Source of the DNA: Runella defluvii
Lineage (GTDB): Bacteria > Bacteroidota > Bacteroidia > Cytophagales > Spirosomataceae
Reading direction: 5' to 3'
DNA length: 64,000 nucleotides
Assembly: GCF_014195535.1 (NCBI RefSeq)
Contig: NZ_JACIBY010000010.1
Span: 186,001 to 250,000 of the forward strand
The notes under the pieces are model-generated. The model had not been told where the DNA came from. It ran no database searches and worked only from the letters and a program-made list of their open reading frames with translations. Position numbers and translations under genes: made by a program. This document shows, piece by piece, positions 6,605-43,593 of the stretch (the first letter of the stretch is position 1; each line of letters starts with the position of its first letter).

Positions 6605-7164
6605 GTGTCAGCGGTTACAATAACCGCTGGTCGGTTTCTCAAAACCGAATGTTGTGAACGAGGTTTTGAGAAACCTCGGTGTTGGATTTGAGAATCCAAC
6701 GGCACGTTTTTGTGTCAGCGGTTACAATAACCGCTGGTCGGTTTCTGAAAACCGAATGTTGTGAGCGAGGTTTTGAGAAACCTCAGTGTTGGATTTGAGA
6801 ATCCAACGGCACGCATTTGTGTCAGCGGTTACAATAACCGCTGGTCGGTTTCTCAAAACCGAATGTTGTGAGCGAAGTTTTGAGAAACCTCGGTGTTGGA
6901 TTTGAGAATCCAACGGCACGTTTTTGTGTCAGCGGTTACAATAACCGCTGGTCGGTTTCTGAAAACCGAATGTTGTGAACGAGGTTTTGAGAAACCTCAG
7001 TGTTGGATTTGAGAATCCAACGGCACGCATTTGAGAATCCAACGGCACGCATTTGCACGTTTTTGTGTCAGCGGTTACAATAACGGCTGGTCGGTTTCTG
7101 AAAACAAGAGTTGTGAACGAGGTTTTGAGAAACCTCAGTGTTGGATTTGAGAATCCAACGGCAC
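6605..7164. repeat. Array of five 107-bp units, each with four small inverted repeats
   Basis: Units begin at 6605, 6712, 6819, 6926 and 7065; the first four are exactly 107 bp apart. Each unit holds four hairpins: GCGGTTA/TAACCGC, CGGTTT/AAACCG, GAGGTTT/AAACCTC and TTGGATT/AATCCAA. The second and third hairpins are inverted repeats of each other (GGTTTCTCAAAACC and GGTTTTGAGAAACC), so they can instead pair into one 14-bp stem. Units 1 and 3 share one variant (CTCA loop, CTCGG, GCACGTTTTT tail) and units 2 and 4 another (CTGA, CTCAG, GCACGCATTT), so the true repeat is a 214-bp dimer. Unit 5 is decayed and is preceded by a 32-bp piece made of two unit tails (7033-7064). The array fills the gap 6583-7164 between divergent genes; no gene lies in it. 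Confidence 0.95.
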
Positions 7165-42780: not shown

Positions 42781-43593
42781 ATGGGACAGAAAGTTAATCC
42801 TGTAGGTCTGCGACTCGGTATCGTCCGTGGTTGGGAATCAAGCTGGTACGGCGGACGTGAGTTTGCTGACAAGTTGATTGAAGATGAGCAGATCCGCAAA
42901 TATATTTCCGCTCGTATTCCAAAAGGCGCCATCTCTAAAGTAGTAATTGAACGTACTTTGAAGCGCATTACGCTTACGATTCACACGGCTCGCCCAGGTA
43001 TCGTAATCGGTAAAGGTGGAAACGAGGTAGATAAAATCAAAGAAGAGCTTAAAAAGATTACGGGTAAAGATATCCAAATCAACATCTACGAAATCAAGCG
43101 TCCTGAAATTGATGCTAAATTGGTAGGTGAATCAATCGCTCAACAACTTGAAAACCGTATCTCTTATCGTCGTGCCATGAAGCAAGCAATTTCTTCGGCA
43201 ATGCGTGTAGGAGCACAAGGTATCAAAGTTCGTGTCTCAGGTCGTCTAGGCGGTGCTGAAATGGCACGTACCGAAGAGTACAAAGAAGGTCGCGTGCCTT
43301 TGCATACACTTCGTGCTGATATCGATTACGCTATCTCAGAAGCTTTGACCGTCTATGGAAAGATTGGAATCAAAGTATGGGTTTTCAAAGGTGAAATCTT
43401 TGGAAAGCGTGACTTATCACCAATCAGCGGTGGTGCAGCAGCAGCAGAACGTAGCGGTGGAAATGACCGTGGCGGAGAGCGTGGCGACCGTCGTAGAGGT
43501 GGTGGTGACCGCGAAGGTGGTGACCGTCGTGGTGGAAACGGTGGCGGCAATAAAAACCGCAACAACAACAACAACCGTAACAAGAAAAAGTAA
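42781..43593 (+). CDS. rpsC: 30S ribosomal protein S3 with extended disordered tail
   Basis: 270 residues, about 40-55 more than the usual E. coli type. The KH domain ([19 protein letters not shown]) and the C-terminal S3 domain ([32 protein letters not shown]) are intact to about residue 213. The rest, from [17 protein letters not shown] to [10 protein letters not shown], is an Arg-Gly-Asn-rich low-complexity tail. S3 lies at the mRNA entry of the 30S. The tail recalls RGG boxes that bind RNA, which is an inference. Sixteen bases after rplV. Confidence 0.96.

Follow-up and report, generated by a model that had tools for sequence, protein, structure and literature searches.

The array at positions 6605–7164 of the window (the whole stretch of Runella defluvii DNA analysed here, 64,000 nucleotides) is in all likelihood a tandem array of REPINs, BIME-like in form, whose cognate RAYT (REP-associated tyrosine transposase, here a domesticated transposase acting on single strands) is encoded elsewhere in the genome. 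This reading is built on a repeat family with one architecture and one spacing, on covariation within its stems, on RAYT genes that lie inside arrays, and on core numbers that follow intact RAYT genes. The surprise is in where constraint falls: hairpin stems drift freely, while the spacing from tag to loop stays fixed.

Tandem Repeats Finder reports a period of 107 bp in 4.0 copies over 6605–7027 (95% matches, score 783); the whole array (no strand is assigned to it or to its units) consists of four 107-bp units and a fifth that has decayed. The units start at 6605, 6712, 6819 and 6926. The first-pass annotation had counted four exact 107-bp steps: the period is exact, but four units leave three such steps between starts. 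Units 1 (6605–6711) and 3 (6819–6925, with a single mismatch in hairpin H3) are of type A, units 2 (6712–6818, with CTGA as the H2 loop) and 4 (6926–7027) of type B. Partial 22-bp repeats of the H4/CAC end (Tandem Repeats Finder; 2.2 copies, 7007–7055) precede the fifth unit (7065–7164), which is decayed, as had been noted: H1 has a mismatch and H2 is damaged. The ABAB alternation, and with it growth by a 214-bp dimer, is borne out by identities of 99% at the 214-bp step vs. 95% at the 107-bp step.

All four units carry the four hairpins ascribed to them (the hairpin script demands perfect stems, and misses H3 of unit 3 and both H1 and H2 of unit 5). Unit 1 reads GTG–H1(+)–H2(+)–linker–H3(-)–H4(-)–CAC. 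On the plus strand the GTG tag (6605–6607) is followed by 10 nt (6608–6617) and then, at 6618, by the loop of H1 (6609–6629; hairpin A of the plus REP, with a 9-bp stem and the loop CAA); H2 (6631–6648; hairpin B) has a CTCA loop 17 nt past loop A. On the minus strand lie H3 (6659–6678; hairpin B of the minus REP), H4 (6681–6700; hairpin A, its loop CTCA on that strand) and CAC (6703–6705), which is the GTG tag of the minus REP, 10 nt from the H4 loop. H2 and H3 had been described as mutual inverted repeats, and an inverted-repeat comparison finds them to be so, position for position.

A coding array was rejected, 107 not being divisible by three. Integron attC sites were also considered and seem unlikely: H4 is similar to the attC core-site consensus, yet the units are not separated by cassette genes. 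CRISPR arrays share with this one their tandem palindromic direct repeats; the units here, however, abut one another, repeat wholly and lack spacers, and CRISPR, already dismissed in the first-pass annotation, was rejected. Elsewhere in the window there is an imperfect short tandem repeat at 43481–43522, with a period of about 18–21 (Tandem Repeats Finder score 50).

The design recurs throughout the genome. The 14-base core GGTTTTGAGAAACC occurs exactly 251 times in 8.0 Mb (reversed control: 0), and one unit used as query gives 266 matches. The loci examined – the window and 50 fetched stretches, chosen from arrays among the matches listed – account for 198 of the 251 cores. A count based on a 12-base inner core, and made without L130, L137 and L139 (where the exact core is absent), gives 57 clusters in these loci: 26 have at least three cores, 12 have two and 19 have a single core. 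Further copies were what the first-pass annotation had staked its reading on, and on this point it stands; it had also rightly named an 'interspersed element' and a 'protein-binding array' among its options. The design is common to the sites and the stems are private to each. According to crude ORF calls, with background frequency forming no part of the comparison, 51 of the 57 clusters lie between ORFs: by gene context 30 are tandem, 17 convergent and 4 divergent, with 4 inside ORFs and 2 at edges.

When a CTCA loop is read as + and a TGAG loop as -, arrays run ++--++-- (e.g. L106, L131 and L138); solitary ++, solitary -- and single hairpins also occur. Since arrays take the form of such strings, the unit is best described as two REPs facing each other (++--), with two hairpins each: that is, as a REPIN. 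Two members stand out on contig C2. At L104:1476–1547 the family CTCA core tips a perfect 34-bp stem, far longer than that of other members, and in L006 (near 228100–228230) a run of N, either masked or unresolved, lies within an array.

Spacing is the strictest feature of the family. Among 349 distinct hairpins from 51 loci – a set that includes the tag-less second hairpins of REPs – 204 have a GTG separated from the loop by exactly 10 nt; the distance is 9 nt in 7, 11 nt in 3 and 12 nt in 18, and on the mirror side 8 have GTG at 10 nt. At least one hairpin with this arrangement (GTG-10-loop) is present in 50 of the 51 loci. The tag's fourth base is variable: what is kept is GTG alone, and not the tetranucleotide GT[AG]G. 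A second hairpin on the same strand is present within 60 nt of 129 of 212 A hairpins (there is none for the other 83), and in 102 of these 129 pairs the gap from loop to loop is 17, 18 or 19 nt. Of 89 distinct same-strand doublets (33 loci), 85 have a GTG no more than 8 nt away from the first hairpin on its 5' side, and 13 have one equally near the second hairpin on its 3' side. The inner arm takes 25 forms in the first hairpin and in the second is most often GAGGTTT; the loop is CTCA in 23 of 45 distinct types of first hairpin (otherwise mostly CTCC, CTTA or CAA) and in 42 of 45 types of second. To judge from these sequences, the series GTG, 10 nt, loop, 17–19 nt, CTCA defines the REP more than the sequence of its stem does.

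Such free stems bear on the idea of a domesticated array that binds a host protein (a nucleoid protein, gyrase or a regulator) and owes only its origin to RAYT. Binding of host proteins is known for enterobacterial REPs, and this lends the idea some appeal; in the present family, however, a double-stranded site would be limited to core plus tag, and presence at the locus in the window is not conserved, which makes a host-protein array quite improbable.

Stems vary and remain paired. With sequences anchored on the loop and the inner four pairs (205 exact anchors in 48 of 51 sources) and expectations drawn from column make-up, position 2 outward is Watson-Crick in 106 of 121 globally distinct hairpins (32% expected), with all four pair types represented, and position 3 in 93 of 121 (30% expected). 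As to the fold switch seen by the first-pass annotation – four hairpins or one 14-bp stem – the long stem can form in isolated strands: folded alone, the type-A unit 1 takes the long stem and the type-B unit 2 the separate hairpins, DNA fold energies lying well beyond those of shuffled sequences (z -7.7 and -7.8; 0 of 200 shuffles each). The type-B change from CTCA to CTGA falls, moreover, in the H2 loop, and weakens the long stem, as had been claimed, with the local hairpin unaffected. A 14-bp stem of this kind is, however, the necessary outcome when one hairpin core is present in two inverted copies. Local and cross pairing were compared in inward-facing neighbours of the own genome (80 pairs, 66 of them distinct). 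Local pairing is found in 57 and 58 of the 66 at position 2 (reached by 0 of 2000 shuffles) and in 57 and 47 at position 3 (above all 2000), whereas pairing across hairpins is found in 24 and 15 at position 2 (shuffled means 21.3 and 18.3) and in 14 and 15 at position 3 (23.1 and 23.5); position 1, nearly always G-C, is uninformative. Fold energies for 76 units (under another definition of distinct than that of the 66 pairs) favor the long fold in 31 and the local fold in 31, with 14 within 1 kcal/mol. A fold switch kept by evolution is thus not supported: H2-H3 pairing outside the shared core is at shuffle level and the energies are tied overall. Compensatory change across copies is abundant, but it is located in the local stems and not in the long one. 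The earlier interpretation holds for the array, its dimer growth and the exclusion of CRISPR; its emphasis on the fold switch does not hold, the switch not being maintained by evolution.

The same data weigh upon a regulatory RNA, in which transcribed units would toggle between four hairpins and one long stem and so control a neighboring gene. The array does lie between divergent genes, OmpA/PD40 on one side and FAN1-like on the other, and unit 1 does take the long stem in isolation; set against this are cross pairing at shuffle level beyond the shared core, the rarity of family clusters in divergent regions (4 of 57), an Rfam scan of the window that gave no match at gathering thresholds, and the absence of an array ahead of the FAN1-like gene in eight of 11 genus genomes. 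A regulatory RNA is, in our view, highly improbable, and the case carries a caution: a repeat may show strong stem covariation, and what looks like a fold switch, without being a riboswitch-like RNA.

Changes within arrays speak to how arms are kept matched. Among 925 cells there are 33 one-sided stem changes and 8 double changes that are still paired, in a grouping that mixes some hairpin roles; the pattern is suggestive, but not decisive, of template switching or selection. Loop flips (TGAG vs. CTCA with the stem unchanged) are clear in a unit of L168 (genome G010), at L145:3339 (the RAYT locus of G003) and at the L114 site (L183 of G007 vs. the own genome, G000); other listed flips may reflect mixed roles. 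Template switching or an inversion of the hairpin would be expected to give flips of this kind, and the excerpts consulted of two papers on template switching in inverted repeats give arm matching and loop inversion as known effects (PMC8604942, PMC8794818).

The array's cognate enzyme is very probably the RAYT encoded at C4:567261–567803, outside the window, with the REPs as its presumed substrate. The genome has eight Y1_Tnp matches (one under the cut-off); this RAYT scores 101.6 bits against a cut-off of 80 for NCBIfam NF047646. Its gene sits among arrays of the family design, with cores on both flanks, and two further RAYT-like genes (L037, C2:562207; L038, C1:854756) have no cores beside them. 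A sequence search of the PDB returns TnpAREP (4er8; E 2.1e-4) as sole match, while a weak AlphaFold model (pLDDT 59) retrieves Y1 transposases, 4er8 included, at E about 0.02 and none at 0.001. In an alignment of five proteins (query: 181 residues) NHIH is present in all five; the Y motif is YMHNNP in three Runella proteins and YIHNNP in the other two; the W motif takes the forms IWDD, IWED and IWEE, with D or E after W and the WQ motif absent. From H62 and H64 to Y138 is 74–76 residues.

Cores and RAYT were then counted in 59 genomes (own included), a RAYT orthologue or remnant being defined by at least 48% identity. Ten of the 59 have at least 10 cores: 251 in G000, 211 and 208 in its congeners G010 and G003 (the latter Runella limosa DSM 17973), 35 each in G001 and G012, 31 in G016, 26 in G002, 20 in G007, 18 in G009 and 16 in G011. 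RAYT is intact in G000, G010, G003 and G016 (251, 211, 208 and 31 cores) and broken or partial in G001, G002 and G007; no orthologue was found in G012, G009 and G011 despite their 35, 18 and 16 cores, and the link between RAYT and cores rests, therefore, on assumed loss in these three. An orthologue or remnant is thus present in 7 of the 10 genomes with at least 10 cores vs. 1 (G056) of the 49 others (Fisher p 2.7e-6, a value that ignores kinship and uses thresholds set after the tables were seen). Four congeners (G004, G005, G006 and G008) have zero cores and no orthologue, only distant RAYT relatives or none. Core number follows intact RAYT among these genomes, which are related and hence not independent. 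In G010, G003 and G016 the RAYT gene lies between units carrying the same cores; the remnant in G002 has a single family hairpin within the surrounding 3 kb.

Among 150 genomes of the taxonomic family the two-hairpin Runella pattern is found in nine, all of the window's genus (control: 0), and is absent from the five genomes outside the genus that have a RAYT match at E <= 1e-30 (G016, G073, G086, G158 and G167; G158 is Spirosoma validum, and G016 and G167 carry the same genus label). S. arboris and a Microscillaceae MAG also have RAYT relatives; those in Bacteroidales MAGs are far ones. In an out-of-sample comparison, the GTG-10-loop spacing is found beside the RAYT relative in G016, G167, G073, S. 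arboris, the Microscillaceae MAG and G056, the last with two-hairpin units of its own on both flanks (GTG-10-CTCA, followed after 19 nt by another CTCA). The spacing thus extends to Spirosoma, to the Microscillaceae MAG and to a genome from another family within the order. In the Microscillaceae MAG 9 of 10 GTTGGATT-CTCA hairpins upstream of the gene have GTG at 10 nt, and a similar hairpin downstream is without it. Beside far relatives ATG replaces GTG at 10 nt (2 of 4 hairpins in G086, and both flanks in Bacteroidales MAGs). No such spacing was found beside the gene in G006, whose RAYT relative is of 33% identity, or in S. validum, where the relative is accompanied by a 25-bp hairpin. Of the cases outside Runella, only G056 and a single Spirosoma-type REP clearly have a second hairpin. 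As to form, the Microscillaceae array (L154:4505–4974) is of a simpler type, a head-to-tail series of single GTG-tagged hairpins before the RAYT relative with a step of about 29–30 bp and the 10-nt spacing of Runella; in S. validum (L153, L195) the RAYT gene is directly adjoined by a 25-bp stem whose tip is CTTA.

Different unit counts at shared sites show that unit number changes between species; the first-pass annotation had proposed to compare copy number between strains. The array at the window site counts five units in G000, four in G010 and three, the last of them cut short, in G003. The four units of the orthologous array in G010 do not alternate; growth by the 214-bp dimer therefore probably came after the G000 and G010 lineages split, as far as these sequences tell. 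The array is absent at this site in 8 of 11 comparable genomes of the genus (own included; G001, where the locus ends nearby, and G004, which has other sequence there, stand outside the comparison): G002, G005, G006, G008, G009, G011 and G012 have none upstream of the FAN1-like gene, and G007 has no array but shares with G003, where it adjoins the array, a small gene with a GYGD motif (which we take to be a potassium-channel filter). In several congeners (L082, L147, L081 and L086; G003, G007 and G006) this gene separates the OmpA/PD40 gene from the FAN1-like one; it is missing from G000 and G010, the array being in its place. At the only two other sites compared, L138 and L114, G007 – its RAYT partial – has one degenerate element, single and decayed, and G000 two to three units. 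No precisely empty site for a whole array was found; at the window site the G007 flank differs by a gene. As far as the host is concerned, the array here is probably a passive insertion, with OmpA/PD40 and FAN1-like genes on either side.

Passive palindromic satellites, spread by slippage and template switching alone and with RAYT a coincidental neighbor, would fit both the variation in array size among species and the flipped loops in unchanged stems; such satellites would nonetheless leave unexplained the dispersal to dozens of sites, the strict spacing of GTG, 10 nt and loop, and the fact that RAYT genes of several species lie within or next to such hairpins, and we consider this account unlikely. 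Under the REPIN account, RAYT would read the tag and loops at fixed spacing on single-stranded DNA (the lagging strand), and would cut and rejoin REPs, seeding new sites at which units then multiply by tandem duplication; the hairpin arms would stay complementary owing to template switching inside the hairpin, to selection for recognition by RAYT, or to both. Mobilisation of REPs by RAYT is proposed here by analogy: the model of reading and rejoining draws on the known chemistry of TnpAREP, which, according to the consulted parts of two papers, processes REP hairpins that bear a 5' motif in single-stranded form (PMC8266576, PMC6006769). More tentatively, and as a possibility toward which we do not yet lean, the REP may be self-diversifying: RAYT would recognise geometry (GTG, a 10-nt ruler, a CTCA-type loop, and a second CTCA hairpin 17–19 nt on) and not the stem, such that arrays drift by template switching and stay substrates. 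In either form the family amounts to a natural mutagenesis, in which hundreds of hairpins with varied stems and fixed spacing predict the features that RAYT reads; in the portion of the literature examined, recognition of REPs by RAYTs has so far been worked out for single-hairpin REPs of proteobacteria.

Among the matches listed for RAYT or REPIN with Bacteroidetes, Runella or Spirosoma, so far as their available text extends, the element is not described. One of the closest known systems is the REPIN/BIME and TnpAREP of, e.g., Escherichia coli (the REPtron): both consist of inverted pairs of short palindromes, mostly extragenic and in many copies, with RAYT flanked by them. The Runella REP, however, has two hairpins where that of E. 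coli has one, its tag is GTG where the classical tag is GT[AG]G, and its stems vary from array to array while the spacing is fixed. A narrow length from tag to loop is shared with the REPs of subclass 2.5, for which the sections consulted give 10–13 nt for foot plus stem (PMC6006769); those REPs, unlike the present ones, are short single hairpins with the canonical tetranucleotide, mostly from Xanthomonads and Pseudomonads. Also close is TnpAY1 subclass 2.6 (RAYT group 5) of Bacteroidetes, with a median of 179 aa and the motifs NH[LIV]H, YIH[QN]NP and WQ, whose flanking structures, found by hand and recurrent in the genome, lack GT[AG]G (PMC6006769, in the same sections). The Runella RAYT resembles this subclass in its Bacteroidetes host, its length of about 180 aa, its NHIH, nearly in its Y motif (Y..NNP) and in the recurrent structures, and differs in having W followed by D or E in place of WQ; its HuH-to-Y distance of 74–76 falls between the 58–67 of most subclasses and the median of 82 for subclass 2.6 (PMC6006769, likewise), and what its sequence suggests is resemblance, not membership. 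In those sections the structures of subclass 2.6 are termed atypical and weaker, their anatomy not being given (Quentin et al. 2018, PMC6006769): the Runella REPs supply a concrete anatomy for one type of 'atypical' structure beside the RAYTs of Bacteroidetes.
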